Shown: positions 1,550 through 23,185, numbered from the stretch's first letter. The stretch: 32,605 nucleotides of DNA from Thermoplasmatales archaeon SM1-50 (GCA_001595945.1 LSSI01000025.1:78550-111154), one strand, 5' to 3'. Notes: a model not told the origin generated them from the letters alone. Program-made: numbers and translations.

Positions 1550-2152
1550 ATGAATTTTCTGGGTTTATCTGGATTTGAAATTTACACCTGGGTTCTTCTC
1601 CCAATATTGATTTTTTTCGCCCGAGTGTGTGATGTTAGTCTAGGTACAATACGTATTATTTTTGTTTCAAAAGGAATTAAATATCTTGCTCCATTGGTCG
1701 GGTTTATTGAAATTCTGATTTGGTTGTTGGCAATTAGTCAGATTTTACAGAACCTATCAAATATATACTATTATATTTTTTACGCGGGTGGTTTTGCAAT
1801 TGGTAATTTTGTTGGTATAATTATTGATGAAAGATTATCTATTGGAACTGTCGGTGTTAGAATTATCACTCGTAAGGATGCAATGGAATTAACGAATGCA
1901 TTAAAAAATGCAGATTTTAGTGTTACTGCTGTTGATGCTGAATGTTCAAAAGGTAATGCTAAGATTATTTTTACTGTTGTTAACCGTCATGATATCCAAA
2001 AGGTAATCAAAATTGTGAAAAAGTATAATCCAAAAGCTTTCTATTCAATTGAAGATATTCGATATGTCAGTGAGATTTTACCTTCACATGTTCAACCTTG
2101 GTACAAAAAAAATCCATTTTATTTTTTAAAAGCTTGGAGGAAAGGGAAATAA
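1550..2152 (+). CDS. UPF0316 / DUF2179-type membrane protein
   Basis: ORF 200 aa; FFARVCDVSLGTIRIIFVSKG...LAPLVGFIEILIWLLAISQI and a C-terminal cytoplasmic GVRIITRKDAMELTNALK...DIRYVSE domain typical of the family. Confidence 0.88.
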   Translation: MNFLGLSGFEIYTWVLLPILIFFARVCDVSLGTIRIIFVSKGIKYLAPLVGFIEILIWLLAISQILQNLSNIYYYIFYAGGFAIGNFVGIIIDERLSIGTVGVRIITRKDAMELTNALKNADFSVTAVDAECSKGNAKIIFTVVNRHDIQKVIKIVKKYNPKAFYSIEDIRYVSEILPSHVQPWYKKNPFYFLKAWRKGK

Positions 2153-3039
2153 ATTTAAATCGACAAAAAAACATTTAAAAAATAATCTATTTTATTTCTC
2201 TTTCAAATTGTTTAGAAACCTTAGAGGATAAATTGGAAGAATTACATAATTATTTTTTTTCCCGAAATTAACATATCATCATCAAAGTAACTCATAGCAA
2301 CAGATGCTTTCATTTATATCTAAAAAATAATATTTACCACCTAAAAAAATTTGCGCGAAAATCTAAAATCAAAAGAAGTTGGTATATTACAAATTAGATC
2401 AACAATGGCAAAAATGGCAGTAAAAACTGTTACTTTATAGAAATAATCCATGGTCTAGAAGTCACTTCCGGTCATACATTCAAATAATCCACCAATTAAT
2501 TAGACTTATAATCGTATGTTTGTGTTTTATCATTGTTTTCATTGATTTAATAATAAATATTTCGCTGAGCCTTTAATTTCACAATATTTTACTTTTTATC
2601 TATTTTCTTATATGATAAGAGTTTAATATTCATCTAGATCTTCACATCCACCAATGTCTCCAGAAGGTACCTTGGGGTTCTGTTTTCACCTTTTAATGTT
2701 TCAACATCACCTTTACACCAATACGTTACCAAAACTGTTAATAAATATCTTATTCATACTTCGATGATCAAGTGTTGATTTAATAGTATCGGAATTAGAT
2801 GGAGTTGACAGTATATTATTTGATCGTGTACTTTTCCTTTTTTTCCTTATTGTTCCTTCTTCTAATACAATCATATGTTGGTTTCTAAATAGCATTTCAT
2901 TTAACCTCATTCTAATAAACAATGGGAGAGATATGAGAGTAGAGAGAGTAAAATGTTTTAAATACTCTTCAACCTCTCAAATCTCACCAAATTAGTTTAC
3001 CATTTTACTGCATCTCAATTCTGGATAGGATGCTAGTTT

Positions 3040-3177
3040 TTATTTAACTGTTTTACGGTTGATTGGGTTGTTTTTTTTGTTTTTTATTTTTCTTAACCAT
3101 TTTTCATCTCCATACTCATAGGCCTTACGCCCTAAAGCAATCCCAATTAATTGGTTCAAATTCAAAATAATTCCCAT
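3040..3177 (-). CDS. Possible 45-aa protein MGIILNLNQLIGIALGRKAYEYGDEKWLRKIKNKKNNPINRKTVK, or a gene remnant
   Basis: Internal Met of the 3040..3246 ORF; protein-like basic sequence; no family recognised. Confidence 0.25.
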   Translation of the reverse strand: MGIILNLNQLIGIALGRKAYEYGDEKWLRKIKNKKNNPINRKTVK

Positions 3178-3273
3178 AAAAAAATAGTATTTTAAAAAGA
3201 AAAAAACAGGAAAATACGGATTTAAACAAAAAAAATGGGTTAACACCAGTATATACTACTGATTAGAGTAACC

Positions 3274-3729
3274 CTAGGGTATTTCAAGAGGGGATATAAA
3301 CTCTCGATCCGCTTGAAGAACACTAACAATTTCTTCATCCTTTAATCCCAGTGGAAGAAGCTGGGACTGAATTATTTCCTTTAGTTCCTTATATGATGGA
3401 GCGACCATAAATATTGCTATTCTATGATGACCTGATATTTGATACACACGCATTACATTTTTTGCATTCTTAATTTTTTCAGTGATTGAATCTAAATCGG
3501 TAGATGATACAGGATTTGCAAATATCATTGCAAAAAAATTCAATCCAAGAGTTGTTTTATCAATAAGAGCAGTATATCCTTGAATAATTCCAATTCTTTC
3601 CATAGCCTTAATACGATCTCTGATAGTAGTTTCCGATCGTTTAAGCTCAGCCGCGATTTCTTTATAGGTCATACGAGCGTCTTTCTGAAGAAGATACAAT
3701 ATTTTTTTATTAATAGCATCAATTTTCAC
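3274..3729 (-). CDS. Lrp/AsnC family transcriptional regulator
   Basis: ORF 151 aa; AsnC HTH (INKKILYLLQKDARMTYKEIAAELKRSETTIRDRIKAMERIGIIQGYTALID) and RAM-like C-terminal domain. Confidence 0.93.
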   Translation of the reverse strand: MKIDAINKKILYLLQKDARMTYKEIAAELKRSETTIRDRIKAMERIGIIQGYTALIDKTTLGLNFFAMIFANPVSSTDLDSITEKIKNAKNVMRVYQISGHHRIAIFMVAPSYKELKEIIQSQLLPLGLKDEEIVSVLQADREFISPLEIP

Positions 3730-3894
3730 AATTCTGAAAACATAAATCTAATATATAAAAAAGACTCATTTTACATTTTTGAGGTTTAAATGTGTTTAAG
3801 ATAAAGAAGAGGATGACAGGAGTAGAATGAGAGAACTAATACCTAATTTCTCCATGACTAACAACCTATAAACATGATTTTAACCTACAACCCT

Positions 3895-4011
3895 TCATGA
3901 TTCTCTTTCATCTTCTTCTAGTGGTTCATCATCTTCATAAATACCAAGTTTCGCTAATTTTTCTGCATTGTAGAAATCTTCATTTCTTATGGTTTTCTTT
4001 TTAGGAGGCAT
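3895..4011 (-). CDS. 38-aa small protein MPPKKKTIRNEDFYNAEKLAKLGIYEDDEPLEEDERES
   Basis: Own translation, below the track cutoff; basic N-terminus, acidic C-terminus; purine-rich ggagggg a few nt upstream of ATG. Confidence 0.5.
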   Translation of the reverse strand: MPPKKKTIRNEDFYNAEKLAKLGIYEDDEPLEEDERES

Positions 4012-4215
4012 AATACCCCTCCATTATTATATATTCTAAGATGCTTTAACATCTATATTTCAACTATGTTTAAAAAATTTAAGAGGGGTATTCACGAAAA
4101 AAACTAAGAAAAAACTCAGAAACCGTGGGCAGTTTTGAAATAGGAAAAATAACTGGATTTAACATATGCCATATGATCATAGCAAAAAATTCTCAGATTC
4201 TTAGTGTTTTAGACG

Positions 4216-4407
4216 TTGTCAGAGAGTATAGAAAGATACAAAAATAAAGAGTATATTTCCCTCCTTAAATGGGTTTGTGGTCTAGTTGGTTATGACCATG
4301 TCCTAATTGCAGAGCTTTTCGATGTGAATCTCGACGAGAATCTCAGAGATATTTTCCACACTTTGTTTAGTAAAAATAAATTGAAGTCGATTTTAAAATA
4401 TTTCTGA
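4216..4407 (+). CDS. Small hypothetical ORF (TTG start) or frame-broken remnant
   Basis: ORF 63 aa; the overlapping upstream frame has MIIAKNSQILSVLDVVREYRKIQK*, suggesting either a frameshift or a spurious call. Confidence 0.3.
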   Translation: MSESIERYKNKEYISLLKWVCGLVGYDHVLIAELFDVNLDENLRDIFHTLFSKNKLKSILKYF

Positions 4408-4431
4408 ATCAATGGAAGAATTGTATTAAAA

Positions 4432-5124
4432 CTATAATAATTGTTTTTTTCTCTTTTGTGTTTGATTAAGAACGGTAACGTCAGTGCGTTTTATGAGTTC
4501 TTGTTCTATCTGTGTCAAATCAGAGACAACATGGTGACCTTTTGTAAGTTTTTTTCTATCAAGATAGTAGGACATGATTCCGAGTTTCTGTGGGGCGAGG
4601 TAATCGAATTGCCTATGATCGCCAACATGGATCATTTCCCGTGGGGAAATCTTTAGTTTTTTACAGATCATCTCATAAAAATCCGTGACTTTTTTCACCG
4701 TATGGAAATCTGAGGTTGATGAAAACACGTACTCGAAGTAATCAGCAAGTCTTGCTTGGCTAAGTTGGATTTCTATGAATTCTTTCTTTGAGTTGGAACT
4801 GATTATTAATCGGTAATGAGATGATAGGTTATTTAAGACCGATGGTACTTCTGGATAAATTTCAATGTTTTTCCGAAACTTTGAAAGCATTTTTTTCCAG
4901 TCTGTTGGGAGGCTATAACGGTCGAACCAATATCCTGGGTCATACCATTCAATCCGATTGTCCCCTACCTTTTCGTATTCCTCGAAAAGAAGGTGTTTTG
5001 CTATCTTCAAATCAACGTGATAGTGTTTGGCGTAGAGTGCGGGTACACCAGAGAGCCAGAATGCGTCTGCGAAGGTATGTTTTACGATGGTGCCGTCAAA
5101 ATCAAAGGAAACTATTTTAATCAT
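4432..5124 (-). CDS. HAD superfamily hydrolase
   Basis: ORF 230 aa; motif I VSFDFDGTIVKHTF, motif II LIISSNSKKEF, motif IV MIHVGDHRQFDYLAPQKLG. Confidence 0.9.
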   Translation of the reverse strand: MIKIVSFDFDGTIVKHTFADAFWLSGVPALYAKHYHVDLKIAKHLLFEEYEKVGDNRIEWYDPGYWFDRYSLPTDWKKMLSKFRKNIEIYPEVPSVLNNLSSHYRLIISSNSKKEFIEIQLSQARLADYFEYVFSSTSDFHTVKKVTDFYEMICKKLKISPREMIHVGDHRQFDYLAPQKLGIMSYYLDRKKLTKGHHVVSDLTQIEQELIKRTDVTVLNQTQKRKKQLL

Positions 5125-11714: not shown

Positions 11715-12971
11715 TTATTTAACCCCGATTACGAAGAACAGTAAGACAAATCCTGTTTTGGTTGTCGCAGCGCCATTAACGGTTACGGTGATCGTTGTCT
11801 TCCCAAACCCAAGGACCGAATGTTTCTTTTCAGATTCGGAACCAGCTGGGATCTGGAGGATAGTCCCTTCTGCGTAATCTCCTTTAAAGAGGAATCCTCC
11901 TTCAAGGGCGATGCTCCATTCGACGCCTGTAATTTCTGAGGTTCCTGTGTTTTTGATGGTTACTGTGATTCCTAATCCTCCTTTTACGGTGACTTCGATT
12001 GGGTATTGGATTGTGAACTCTTCTGATTTTTCGTCTTCAACATTTCCTGCGATATCGACCGAGTAGAAAGCTACGGTGTGATTTCCGTTTCCTGTGACCA
12101 TGAATGGTGCTGTGTAGGTGTTCCATGTCCCATCATCAATCTTGTACATGGTGTAGTTCACACCAGAGCCAGAGTCAGTTGCAGATAACGTTACTTTTAC
12201 ATCGGATACGTAGACTCCACCGCTTTCATTTCCTTCAAGAGTTGCAGTTGTAACTGGTGGTATAGTGTCTCCGCCCCCGCCACCTGTGACTTCAAAATCA
12301 TCAATAAACAGCATCCAGGAGTCTACCGATATATCGTTTATTCCGATGTATATGCTTTGACCAGCATAGCTAGAAATATCAAATGTGTATAGCGTCCAGG
12401 TTAGTGGTGGCTGGATATAAGATCCAGGTGATATTTTCGTGAAGCTTGATGGGTTGGTATCGGTGGTTGAGACACTGACAGTGAACCTTTCAAAATTATA
12501 TTGGTCGCTAAATGAACGTGCCCAGAAACTGACGTTATCATAATCACCAGTGAGCTGCGGAGTAATCAACCAATCGTCACTGATATATCCAACATTGTCT
12601 TCGTTAATTCCCATAACCATTTTGCTGCCTGAATGAGGCTGCCATTCTGTGCCTGATTGCGGTGGTGTGGTTGTTGAAGGATTAAAAATGATAAACGCAT
12701 AGGCTGACCATTGATTTGGCCATGAAACGGCACTATGACCAAATGTCGGACTACCATCAACATCAATACAGGTCCATGGTGGGAAGTTGGTGAGCCAATC
12801 AGTATAGTTTTCAAACCCATCTTGAAAGATAATGTCTCTATTTGTCGTTCCTGGATTTAACGAAACGACACTATCAGTTCTTGTCTTTGTTGGTATCGCC
12901 GATACAGGAAGACACATTGCTAAGGCGATAACTATGACTAAAGCTGCCTTTAGTATTGATTTTTTCAACAT
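11715..12971 (-). CDS. Secreted protein with cleaved-adhesin-like domain, OmpL47-like Ig repeat and a C-terminal uncharacterised domain
   Basis: Signal peptide MLKKSILKAALVIVIALAMCLPVSA; FQDGFENYTDWLTNFPPWTCIDVDGSPTFGHSAV...GGGGGDTIPPVTTATLEG...YYSVDIAGNVE-type repeat; C-terminal GGLGITVTIKNTG...GFVLLFFVIGVK. Confidence 0.85.
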   Translation of the reverse strand: MLKKSILKAALVIVIALAMCLPVSAIPTKTRTDSVVSLNPGTTNRDIIFQDGFENYTDWLTNFPPWTCIDVDGSPTFGHSAVSWPNQWSAYAFIIFNPSTTTPPQSGTEWQPHSGSKMVMGINEDNVGYISDDWLITPQLTGDYDNVSFWARSFSDQYNFERFTVSVSTTDTNPSSFTKISPGSYIQPPLTWTLYTFDISSYAGQSIYIGINDISVDSWMLFIDDFEVTGGGGGDTIPPVTTATLEGNESGGVYVSDVKVTLSATDSGSGVNYTMYKIDDGTWNTYTAPFMVTGNGNHTVAFYSVDIAGNVEDEKSEEFTIQYPIEVTVKGGLGITVTIKNTGTSEITGVEWSIALEGGFLFKGDYAEGTILQIPAGSESEKKHSVLGFGKTTITVTVNGAATTKTGFVLLFFVIGVK

Positions 12972-15590: not shown

Positions 15591-16625
15591 ATGAAATACG
15601 CAGTTATCTATCATGAGGATTTTAACAAATATGATCTGGGAATAGCTCACCCACTTGTTGGCGATAAACCAAGAAATACCATGACGTATCTAAAAGAACA
15701 AAGTATACTATCCGAGTTTCAGATATTTACCCCAAAAAAAGCAACGGAAGCAGATATCCTCAAAGTGCATGATTCCGCCTACTTGAAACATGTAAAAAAA
15801 CTCAGTCAGACTGGCGGATGGTTATCAGGTGACACGCCAACACCAAAAGGGATTTTCGAAATTGCATGTTTAGCGACCGGTGGAAGTATACACGCAGGTG
15901 AAAAGCTTTTTGAAGGATTTCGCATCGCCGTTAATCCACTGGCCGGCTTTCACCATGCAAGCAAAGGGCATTCTTCCGGGTTTTGTTTCTTTAACGATAT
16001 TGCAATTACGATTGAATATTTAAGAGAGAAAGAAAAATTGAAGCGATTCATGATTATTGACCTCGATGTCCACCATGGAAACGGCACACAGGATATCTAT
16101 TATGATGATAAAACAGTCTTAAACCTATCGTTTCATCAAGATGGAAGGACCTTATATCCTGGAACTGGAAGCGTTGAAACCATAGGTCGGGAGGATGCTG
16201 CTGGGTACACCATTAACCTTCCTCTTCCCCCAGGAACAGGTGGTAAAAGCTATATAAAAGCTTTTCAAGAAATCGTACCACTAATCACCAGACTATACAA
16301 ACCAAACATCATCCTGTTTCAATCTGGTGTGGATACCCATCACTCAGATCCATTAGCTGACCTCAACCTTACATACCAGACCTATTATTATCTCGCAAAA
16401 CAAGTTGCAATACTCTCGCAAGAGACTTGTCAAAAACTCCTTGTCCTCCTTGGGGGTGGATACAATAGCATTGCGTGCGTCAAATCATATTATAACATTT
16501 TTTGTGGTCTTATCGGCAAACAAGACTTTCTTAAGGAAGCAGAAATCCCTGATACGAGCCCTGTAGCGGTTCACCACGTCGTCTCCCAGTTGAAACGTGC
16601 CCTTGGTGAATATTGGGAATTTTGA
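15591..16625 (+). CDS. Histone deacetylase / acetoin-utilization (AcuC-like) family protein
   Basis: ORF 344 aa; GFHHASKGHSSGFCFFNDIAI, MIIDLDVHHGNGTQDIYY, LSFHQDGRTLYPGTG, FQSGVDTHHSDPLADL, LLGGGYN: zinc and catalytic His motifs retained. Confidence 0.93.
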   Translation: MKYAVIYHEDFNKYDLGIAHPLVGDKPRNTMTYLKEQSILSEFQIFTPKKATEADILKVHDSAYLKHVKKLSQTGGWLSGDTPTPKGIFEIACLATGGSIHAGEKLFEGFRIAVNPLAGFHHASKGHSSGFCFFNDIAITIEYLREKEKLKRFMIIDLDVHHGNGTQDIYYDDKTVLNLSFHQDGRTLYPGTGSVETIGREDAAGYTINLPLPPGTGGKSYIKAFQEIVPLITRLYKPNIILFQSGVDTHHSDPLADLNLTYQTYYYLAKQVAILSQETCQKLLVLLGGGYNSIACVKSYYNIFCGLIGKQDFLKEAEIPDTSPVAVHHVVSQLKRALGEYWEF

Positions 16626-16690
16626 CCTGTTTTTACGAGTAACAAAACGTTTATCTAGAGACCCCGGATACCGATTAGTTAGTCTACGAA

Positions 16691-16699
16691 TACTTATAA
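16691..16699 (+). promoter_or_regulatory. TATA-like box for the PFOR gene
   Basis: acttataaa about 40-50 nt upstream of ATG 16739; a TSS ~25 nt downstream would exclude the 16709 start. Confidence 0.4.
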
Positions 16700-20290
<3,591 letters not shown>

Positions 20291-20404
20291 TGCTTTCCCT
20301 TTTTTTATTTTTTTAAATATATAAGAAGGGTCGATAAGATTATATAATCGATTCTGCTTTCGTGGCTTCGGCGCTCAATCGGTCCTTATCTGGAGGGACG
20401 CACA

Positions 20405-23185
20405 ATGAGTGGATCAAAACTTGATAAGATTTTCAAACCAAAAAGCATCGCCGTTATTGGTGCAAGCGACACGCTAGGCTCAGCAGGATATAGGATTTTT
20501 AGGAATCTGATAGGCTCTGGTTATGATGGTATCGTCTATCCAGTGAATCACAAACGGGAGAGCGTACAGGGGGTTCAAGCCTACTCGTCAATCAACGCTG
20601 TTCCGAAGGTCGTTGACCTTGCGATTGTGTGTACTCCTGCTATCGCGGTCTGTGATATTGTAGAGCAATGTGGGATACGCGGTGTTAGAGGTATTCTTAT
20701 CATCTCAGCGGGATTTAAGGAGATCGGGGCTGAAGGAGTCGCGCGGGAGAAACGTTTATTGGATTTGAAGAAAAAATATGATTTGAGGATTGTCGGCCCG
20801 AACTGCGTTGGCTTTATCATGCCATATCTGAATCTTAATGCAACCTTTGCTGGATCCATGCCTGACAAAGGAAACATCGCGTTGCTCTCGCAGAGCGGTG
20901 CAGTTTGTGGTGCCATCCTTGATTGGGCGGCAGCAGCAAAGGTTGGGTTTTCCTCCTTTGTCTCCGTTGGTTCCATGCTTGATGTTGATTTCGGTGATCT
21001 GATTGATTATTTCGGGATGGACATTCATACGCGCAGTATCGTCCTGTACATCGAGTCAATCACCGATGCAAAGAAGTTCATGAGCGCAACAAAGGGGTTT
21101 GCTAGAGCAAAACCAATTATTGTGATCAAATCAGGTCGTTATAAAGAAGGTGCTAAGGCAGCATCGTCCCATACTGGTGCGCTTGCTGGGGAGGATATCA
21201 TTTATGACGCGGCGTTCCGCAGGTCGGGGGTCGTCAGGGTGATGGACATCATGGATTTGTTCAATTGTTCATCAATTTTAGCAAAACAACCTCGTCCGAT
21301 GGGGCCGAATATCGCGATTGTCACCAATGCAGGGGGACCTGGGGTTCTTGCTACTGACTCAATTATCGAGAAGGGTGGAAAGCTTGCGCAACTCTCACCG
21401 GAAACAATTGAGAAGCTTAACAAGGTGCTGCCTGTTCATTGGAGTCATAGCAACCCGGTTGATATAATCGGGGATGGCGATGAGGATCGATATCAGAAAG
21501 CAATTGAGATCTGCCTAGAGGATAAGAATATCGATGGATTGTTGATTCTCTCTGTCCCTCAGGTCATGGCTGACCCTAAGAAACTTGCAGACCGGCTTGT
21601 GGATATCGCACGAAAGTCAACAAAACCTATTCTTACCTCGTTAATTGGCGAGGCAAGTGTGTATCACTCCCGGGAGATACTGAATCGAAATAATATCCCA
21701 ACATACGCGTCTCCTGATGAAGCGGTTGAATCTTACATGTATCTTTACCATTATGAGCGACATTTAGAGCAACTCTATGAGACTCCACAGGAGCTTGATA
21801 TCCAAACACCTGCTCATACTGAGATTGTAAAAAAAATCTTGAATTCAGCGGCGAAGGAGAAAAGAACGCTGCTTAACGAAAGTGAAGCAAAGACATTCCT
21901 TGAACTCTATGGTATTACCACGACAACGCCAATCATTGCAGACACCGGAGAGAAAGCAGTCAAAGCAGCAGAGAAGATTGGTTACCCTGTGGTGATGAAA
22001 ATTTTATCTCCGCAAATCGTCCATAAAAGCGATGTCGATGGGGTTGTATTGGACTTACGCTGTGAAGAGGATATTCGCAAGGCATTCCGTGAGATGACAA
22101 AAAAGGCAAAAGAAAAAGTCCCAGATGCAAAGATTCTTGGGGTTACTGTTCAGAAATTTATAAAAAACTGGGGATATGAATTGATTCTAGGCTCAAAGAA
22201 AGACCTAGTGTTCGGCTCTGTTATTCTGTTTGGTTTAGGTGGAATTTTCACCGAGCTGTTCAAGGATAGGGCGGTTGGGTTCCCCCCTTTAAATCAGACC
22301 TTGGCACAACGCATCATCGAAAAAACAAAAGCCTACGAGTTGTTGAAAGGATTCCGCAACATCCCACCGGTGAATATGAACTCTGTAGAAGAAACCATGA
22401 TTAAATTTTCTCAGATGCTTATTGATCATCCAGAAATCAAAGAAGTCGATATCAATCCCTTGATACCGCAAGGAAACCAGCTTATCGCTGTTGATGCAAG
22501 GATCATCCTTGACTCTGAACCAGACAACCATCCGCATCTCATCATCACCCCCTATCCCATGAAATATAACAAACAAATTAAGCTAAAAGATGACACAGAG
22601 ATTGAACTTCGGCCGATAAGACCAGAGGATGAGGACATGTGGCTTGAGATGTTCAAAAGTTTCTCTGAGGAGACCATTCGATACCGCTTTTTCAGAATCA
22701 TTAAGGAGACCCCTCATGAGGTTCGAACCCGCTACTGCAATATCGATTACGACCGAGAAATAGGTGTCGTCGCCATCGTCACTGAAAATGGTAAAAAAAG
22801 GATCCTTGGTGTAGCCCGACTTATTGTTGACCCGATGAAAAAGGATGAATGTGAATTCGCACTTGTTGTGACCGATGAATGGCAGCGACAAGGGTTAGGT
22901 TCCCGGTTTCTTGACTTCTTAATAGAAATTGCCAAGGATAAGAACCTAACGAAAATCACAGGAGTCGTGTTGAAGGATAACTACCCGATGATCGCCTTAT
23001 GCCGTGAGAAAAACTTCCGATTCTCAGAGGGAGACCCTGGTGAATACAAGGTGGAGTACGATGTCCTTCTTGATGAAGGTCTTACCGATGGGACTCTTGA
23101 GAGTGGCAAAAACATCAGCGAATCCGATGAACCATATGAGGGAAAAACAACAAAAAAACCCCTAAAAAACCATCTAGAGCTGTAA
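20405..23185 (+). CDS. ADP-forming acetyl/acyl-CoA synthetase (alpha-beta fusion) with C-terminal GNAT acetyltransferase domain
   Basis: ORF 926 aa; KSIAVIGASDTLGSAGYRIFRNLI, GPNCVGFIMPYLNLNATFA, AASSHTGALAGEDIIYDAAF, PVVMKILSPQIVHKSDVDGV ATP-grasp, and GNAT IELRPIRPEDEDMWLEMF...ECEFALVVTDEWQRQGLGSRFLDFLIEIAK. Confidence 0.95.
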   Translation: MSGSKLDKIFKPKSIAVIGASDTLGSAGYRIFRNLIGSGYDGIVYPVNHKRESVQGVQAYSSINAVPKVVDLAIVCTPAIAVCDIVEQCGIRGVRGILIISAGFKEIGAEGVAREKRLLDLKKKYDLRIVGPNCVGFIMPYLNLNATFAGSMPDKGNIALLSQSGAVCGAILDWAAAAKVGFSSFVSVGSMLDVDFGDLIDYFGMDIHTRSIVLYIESITDAKKFMSATKGFARAKPIIVIKSGRYKEGAKAASSHTGALAGEDIIYDAAFRRSGVVRVMDIMDLFNCSSILAKQPRPMGPNIAIVTNAGGPGVLATDSIIEKGGKLAQLSPETIEKLNKVLPVHWSHSNPVDIIGDGDEDRYQKAIEICLEDKNIDGLLILSVPQVMADPKKLADRLVDIARKSTKPILTSLIGEASVYHSREILNRNNIPTYASPDEAVESYMYLYHYERHLEQLYETPQELDIQTPAHTEIVKKILNSAAKEKRTLLNESEAKTFLELYGITTTTPIIADTGEKAVKAAEKIGYPVVMKILSPQIVHKSDVDGVVLDLRCEEDIRKAFREMTKKAKEKVPDAKILGVTVQKFIKNWGYELILGSKKDLVFGSVILFGLGGIFTELFKDRAVGFPPLNQTLAQRIIEKTKAYELLKGFRNIPPVNMNSVEETMIKFSQMLIDHPEIKEVDINPLIPQGNQLIAVDARIILDSEPDNHPHLIITPYPMKYNKQIKLKDDTEIELRPIRPEDEDMWLEMFKSFSEETIRYRFFRIIKETPHEVRTRYCNIDYDREIGVVAIVTENGKKRILGVARLIVDPMKKDECEFALVVTDEWQRQGLGSRFLDFLIEIAKDKNLTKITGVVLKDNYPMIALCREKNFRFSEGDPGEYKVEYDVLLDEGLTDGTLESGKNISESDEPYEGKTTKKPLKNHLEL

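Follow-up and report, generated by a model that had tools for sequence, protein, structure and literature searches.

A gene for a zinc-dependent deacylase of the HDAC family and a gene for an ADP-forming acetyl-CoA synthetase (ACD) with a C-terminal GNAT domain (ACD-GNAT, referred to below as the fusion) form a pair that is conserved within a single family of uncultured Thermoplasmatota. The pair was analyzed in a 32,605-nucleotide stretch of DNA from Thermoplasmatales archaeon SM1-50 (GCA_001595945.1 LSSI01000025.1:78550-111154; G000:C25:78550-111154), here called the window, which comes from a 2.09-Mb assembly of 94 contigs (94% complete), and in which a gene for a single-chain pyruvate:ferredoxin oxidoreductase (PFOR) lies between the two genes. 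On balance, the pair probably acts as an acetyl-CoA-sensing switch on acetyl-CoA synthetase (Acs) that follows the AcuA/AcuC logic, with a Pat-type writer, an AcuC-like eraser, and AMP-forming synthetases as main targets; its enzyme activities, the identity of its targets, and the direction of regulation are what we infer.

Conservation of the gene pair

The open reading frames (ORFs) for HDAC, PFOR, and the fusion are all intact on the plus strand (Table 1), and the earlier description of the window from its sequence alone (the sequence-only reading), according to which a HDAC gene, a NifJ-type PFOR gene, and a gene for an ACD with a C-terminal GNAT domain are consecutive on one strand, was borne out for ORFs and domains alike. 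Orthologs of each gene were mapped in 59 relatives, and the presence of HDAC and the fusion was scored in all 45 sampled genomes of the family, some of which are incomplete metagenome-assembled genomes. HDAC was present in 27 of these 45 genomes and the fusion in 23, with both in 21 and neither in 16. The fusion gene directly followed the HDAC gene on the same strand in 11 genomes of other genera (G012, G021, G022, G024, G025, G026, G027, G029, G030, G032, and G061), with a gap of about 70 to 140 bp between the predicted coding regions. The order HDAC-PFOR-fusion was found in seven genomes of the window's genus (G000, G002, G003, G004, G006, G007, and G008), while in G010, from a sister genus, PFOR immediately preceded the fusion and HDAC lay upstream at a distance of about 3.8 kb, with extra genes between. 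The locus of G001 was interrupted by contig ends, and G005 had HDAC-PFOR on one contig and the fusion on another. At 8 of 10 loci examined outside the genus, the pair occurred without any other gene of the window (several of these contigs end nearby), and since the pair is kept while its surroundings differ, its adjacency exceeds background synteny. Co-occurrence of the two genes gave a Fisher p of 1.1e-5 by genome and a weak p of 0.035 by genus, neither value being corrected for kinship. The conserved unit is the HDAC and ACD-GNAT pair rather than the trio of HDAC, PFOR, and fusion; conservation of adjacency in relatives, the test that the sequence-only reading had set for itself, holds for this pair. 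In G011, a 45-amino-acid remnant of the fusion lies directly after HDAC (L094:14205-14339), which may reflect decay of the writer while the eraser was retained, or a misassembly.

The PFOR gene is at other places in most other genera and stands between the two genes solely in the window's genus and, accompanied by extra genes, in G010, so that it is a later insert or rearrangement outside the conserved unit. Its place in the unit, as first proposed, therefore gives way to a recent, genus-level insertion, and the trio was rejected as a conserved energy module after the 59 relatives had been mapped. The enzyme itself matches the TIGR02176 model over its full length (positions 1 to 1167 of 1167; 1942 bits against a cutoff of 911), and its true start is perhaps a few codons inside the stated ORF. 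In the spacer that separates PFOR from the fusion, the window has a terminator-like T-run followed by a TATA-like box, and in all seven genus genomes examined T-runs, a TATA-like box, and then a purine-rich stretch (mostly GGAGGG) precede the fusion start. Judged by these elements, the fusion probably has its own transcription start, and PFOR and the fusion are likely separate transcription units, a single operon being doubtful. In every genus member examined, the spacer between HDAC and PFOR contains a conserved A/T block (GACCCCGGATACCGATTAGTTGGTC-like), which could be a promoter plus operator.

The fusion as a predicted type-I acetyltransferase

The fusion has the Pfam domains CoA_binding, Succ_CoA_lig, Ligase_CoA_2, and ATP-grasp_5 and, after them, GNAT. 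Among proteins of solved structure, its best relative is Escherichia coli PatZ (9it0; residues 3 to 872, E value 5.5e-165), and the named matches to the GNAT domain alone are mostly protein acetyltransferases. In a midpoint-rooted FastTree phylogeny of the synthetase domain, the archaeal fusions grouped with bacterial fusions, apart from the archaeal ACDs sampled (support 1.0), the nearest bacterial fusion found being a plasmid copy from the cyanobacterium Kovacikia, followed by those of Sinorhizobium, Sphingobium, and Vibrio and by PatZ. On its domain order and tree position, the fusion is classed as a type-I (Pat/PatZ) protein rather than an archaeal ACD; Pat had been cited in the sequence-only reading as an analogy, and the likeness extends to architecture and grouping in the tree. 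Separate genes for an ACD alpha subunit (C28:2902-4230) and beta subunit (C48:8690-9334) in the same genome are the probable ordinary ACD of the organism, and together with the grouping of the fusion with Pat they speak against the proposal that the fusion is the main enzyme yielding acetate and ATP.

In a set of 390 genomes from the phylum, the complete fusion was confined to the window's family, and acquisition from bacteria by transfer would be the simplest account, one based on few bacterial sequences. The sister family f2, which lacks the fusion, has stand-alone GNATs (L104:748-1272 and L106:6541-7080) that are about 48 to 50% identical to the GNAT domain of the fusion. These are closer to it than the GNAT of any bacterial fusion, so the two halves of the fusion may have separate histories.

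In the synthetase half, the phospho-histidine His256 and the ATP-grasp His540, equivalent to H256 and H535 of Nmar_0206 (PMC11494057), were kept in 19 of 19 fusion orthologs, as were the GGIxTE and DINP motifs (DVNP in one ortholog). PatZ, in contrast, aligned without the first phospho-histidine, the ATP-grasp Glu, and the Asn of DINP. The His is likewise present in the bacterial fusions of Kovacikia, Sinorhizobium, and Sphingobium, and the idea that the intact His is unique to the archaeal lineage was rejected, bacterial plasmid fusions keeping it too. A review describes the type-I synthetase domains of characterized members as inactive acetyl-CoA-binding sensors (PMC8556138), and the archaeal lineage differs from those members; by residue retention, inactivity is better taken as a property of some type-I members than of the architecture. 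In the GNAT half, alignment with PatZ placed the catalytic Glu at Glu817 and showed the P-loop QRQGLG to be present. The window copy reads HKSDVDGV, with Asp at residue 545, beside His540, where all 18 aligned orthologs have Gly; the difference may be genuine or may stem from an error in the assembly. An AlphaFold model of the fusion, built on a nine-row alignment, had a mean pLDDT of 49.8 and was discarded.

The HDAC as a predicted AcuC-like deacylase

The predicted catalytic residues of the HDAC, namely, His121 and His122, the zinc ligands Asp159, His161, and Asp248, Tyr291, and the rim residue Asp81, were invariant in eight aligned orthologs, in agreement with the intact His-His and zinc motifs noted at the outset. 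The closest matches of its predicted structure, which has a mean pLDDT of 78 and is poor in the loops 123-131 and 184-205, were bacterial Kdac1/HDAH and HDAC8. The foot pocket has the motifs (G/A)GFHH and GGGY, the former being LAGFHH in the window and LGGFHH in most orthologs. The AcuC pattern comprises Asp91, XGGLHH (GGGLHH in AcuC itself), and GGGY, the strict deacetylases have the foot-pocket motifs RPP/EGGY, and the polyamine deacetylase PsApaH has Gly117 at the rim, where most peptide deacylases have Asp or Glu (PMC11532494). The window protein has the features of the AcuC-like group (cluster 2), that is, HH, DxH, D, and Tyr, a rim Asp, an XGGLHH-like motif with Phe for Leu, and GGGY; its invariant Asp81 differs from the Gly of the polyamine deacetylases (cluster 4). 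A polyamine substrate is disfavored by the rim Asp and the foot-pocket motifs. These residues predict an AcuC-like lysine deacylase, which is perhaps acyl-promiscuous.

Proposed mechanism and candidate targets

In the Acs switch, the functional unit would be a writer and eraser for reversible acetylation, or short-chain acylation, of lysine. The synthetase domain of the writer, the fusion, would bind and possibly make or consume acetyl-CoA and would signal the status of acetyl-CoA, CoA, or ATP to the GNAT domain. The GNAT domain would transfer acetyl groups to target lysines. The main targets would most likely be AMP-forming acetyl- and acyl-CoA synthetases of the same genome, at the lysines of PKTRSGK and PKTQSGK. 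When acetyl-CoA is plentiful, acetylation would shut off acetate activation and so keep it from cycling futilely against the ADP-forming ACD, which produces acetate; the eraser, the AcuC-like zinc deacylase, would restore activation. PFOR would be a metabolic supplier of acetyl-CoA and a genus-level neighbor.

The genome encodes candidates for such targets. PKTRSGKIMR occurs in the C-terminal piece of an AMP-forming Acs, whose gene is cut by the end of contig C78, and PKTQSGK in an acyl-CoA synthetase on C70; RSGKIMR is the AcsA site that AcuC deacetylates (PMC11532494). From these motifs, Acs is a plausible target of the pair. MBG-D archaea, which also belong to the Thermoplasmata and may or may not include the family of the window, are reported to have both Acs and ACD (PMC6461988), and the presence of both enzymes in one cell would make a switch against futile cycling sensible. 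A single family search found no Sir2 domain in the genome. The cluster for acetyl-CoA-linked acetylation and deacetylation that had been proposed thus stands in part: the predicted writer and eraser and their conserved adjacency are retained, and the inclusion of PFOR and the choice of PFOR and chromatin proteins as targets are not, control or acetylation of PFOR by the pair being unsupported and nothing linking Alba, encoded on another contig, to the pair.

Several observations weigh against the Acs switch. The HDAC predates the fusion and occurs without it in sister families and in two more distant families, so it had another role first, and the genome encodes a second HDAC-family protein. 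HDAC lacks its partner in six genomes and the fusion in two (incomplete assemblies among them), so neither strictly depends on the other, and the predicted separate promoters make cotranscription unlikely. The Acs gene lies away from the pair, on C78, and Acs-like genes occur in 45 of 45 family genomes, including those without the pair, with no covariation; Acs co-occurrence was set aside as uninformative.

Alternative explanations

A bifunctional enzyme, in which a live synthetase half passes acetate or some other acid, by way of acyl-CoA, on to protein acylation, and so ties lysine acylation directly to the levels of ATP/ADP and carboxylate, and in which the HDAC serves as a broad deacylase, is fairly unlikely. 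It draws on the retention of both phospho-relay His residues, GGIxTE, and DINP, as opposed to the losses in PatZ, with some bacterial fusions keeping them, and on the GGFHH/GGGY motifs, which suggest an open foot pocket of the kind described in acyl-promiscuous deacylases (PMC11532494). However, residue retention differs from activity, the characterized type-I domains are those described as inactive sensors (PMC8556138), and the window copy alone has the Gly-to-Asp change near His540. Unlikely, too, is a self-contained archaeal acylation switch in which the writer doubles as a working ADP-forming acyl-CoA synthetase: a single protein would make or burn acyl-CoA with ATP/ADP and draw on that pool to modify lysines, with an acyl-promiscuous AcuC-like eraser next door.

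Adjacency without shared function, in which a horizontally acquired type-I GNAT protein landed beside an older HDAC gene, is distinctly unlikely. The greater age of the HDAC and its occurrence alone in sister families would fit, as would the family-restricted distribution of the fusion and the cyanobacterial plasmid copy as its closest relative found; but the pair is adjacent in about a dozen genera despite changing surroundings, and the presence of the two genes covaries.

We regard as improbable an acetyl-CoA energy module in which PFOR makes acetyl-CoA, the fusion converts it to acetate and ATP, and the module acetylates and deacetylates its own enzymes. The three-gene order in at least seven genus genomes, the intact synthetase residues, and Mvh-type hydrogenase genes beside HDAC in genus relatives and Hdr-like genes in others, which fit a ferredoxin/H2 fermentation neighborhood, are countered by the location of PFOR away from the pair in most other genera, the terminator and TATA-like box that separate PFOR from the fusion, the dedicated ACD alpha and beta genes, and the grouping of the fusion with Pat. 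A chromatin switch, in which the pair would set how far Alba or further DNA-binding proteins are acetylated, is very improbable, for although an Alba gene is present and Alba is reported to be a substrate of Pat and Sir2 in Sulfolobus, there is no genomic tie to chromatin genes and the writer type is known for metabolic enzymes.

Comparison with known systems

The fusion resembles Salmonella Pat and E. coli PatZ in its full-length match, its tree group, and its catalytic Glu and P-loop, and it differs from them in its archaeal host, in the synthetase residues lost in PatZ, and in adjoining a zinc-HDAC gene, since no HDAC was found in the neighborhoods examined around patZ or five sampled bacterial type-I fusions. 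With the acuABC/acsA system of Bacillus subtilis (AcuA, AcuC, and AcsA), which the sequence-only reading had also named as an analogy, the locus shares an acetyltransferase gene adjoining a zinc-deacylase gene, AcuC-type motifs, and an Acs with RSGKIMR in the genome; unlike that bacterial system, this archaeon has a large type-I fusion as writer instead of AcuA, and acs is not adjacent, neither acuB nor acsA being found among the typed neighbors in the window. Sulfolobus Pat/Sir2 and Haloferax Pat1/Pat2 are likewise archaeal GNAT protein acetyltransferase systems; Pat1 and Pat2 have a GNAT domain only, a form described as the common one in archaea, whereas the window genome has a fused type-I writer, with Sir2 not found. 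Archaeal ACDs (Nmar_0206 and the Korarchaeum ACD) share the domain set and both phospho-relay His residues with the fusion, which has an extra GNAT and falls outside the tree group of the sampled archaeal ACDs. By analogy, the pair probably represents known AcuA/AcuC-type logic with a Pat-type writer in an archaeon, an unusual mix of parts. A literature search of open-licence papers found no published account of a HDAC/ACD-GNAT pairing.

Features of the window and neighboring genes

Table 1. Positions of the pair, PFOR, and associated sites in the window
Feature	Position	Strand	Basis
HDAC-family Zn-dependent deacylase, 344 aa	15591..16625	+	PF00850, E 3e-83
HDAC Asp81	15831-15833		
HDAC His121-His122	15951-15956		
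HDAC Asp159/His161	16065-16073		
HDAC Asp248	16332-16334		
HDAC Tyr291	16461-16463		
Conserved A/T block, HDAC/PFOR spacer	16645-16690		Genus members examined
Single-chain NifJ-type PFOR, 1193 aa	16709..20290	+	TIGR02176, 1942 bits
PFOR/fusion spacer with T-run and TATA-like box	20291..20404	+	Sequence, 7 genus genomes plus G010
T-run (terminator-like)	20300-20314		
TATA-like box	20340-20349		
ACD-GNAT fusion, type-I (Pat/PatZ) architecture, 926 aa	20405..23185	+	PatZ match, tree
NDP-forming acyl-CoA synthetase part, ~residues 1-705	20405..22519	+	His256, His540
Phospho-His256	21170-21172		19/19 orthologs
ATP-grasp His540	22022-22024		19/19 orthologs
Asp545 (Gly in orthologs)	22037-22039		
Pat-like GNAT domain, ~residues 715-890	22547..23074	+	PF00583, PF13302, NF058543 Pat matches
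Glu817 (catalytic Glu)	22853-22855		Alignment with PatZ

An arylsulfotransferase-like gene lies just upstream of HDAC in the window, at the place where genus relatives carry an Mvh-type cluster. In L073 (positions 1612-4980), this divergent hydrogenase cluster comprises genes for a small subunit, a NiFe large subunit, a HycI protease, and MvhD, and the gene sizes in L074, L075, L077, and L083 resemble it. Other genera have HdrCBA-like genes near HDAC or the fusion (L087:3689-7080, with similar gene sizes in L093, L094, and L076), which suggests an electron-bifurcation neighborhood. Positions 11715-12971 of the window encode a probable surface protein with OmpL47-type and choice-of-anchor J domains, to which ORFs on contig C48 are related.

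Significance

Few systems for reversible lysine acetylation are known in archaea, and these consist of single-domain GNATs with, mostly, Sir2. A fused Pat-type writer stably beside a zinc-dependent HDAC is a concrete, genetically defined candidate writer/eraser pair in an uncultured sediment lineage, and its intact synthetase residues raise the question of whether type-I acetyltransferases descend from, or still act as, metabolic enzymes as opposed to pure sensors. Should the synthetase be live, carboxylate availability and energy charge would be read directly as protein acylation. If the pair is an Acs switch, it would explain how cells with both Acs, which uses ATP, and ACD, which makes it, avoid a futile acetate cycle.

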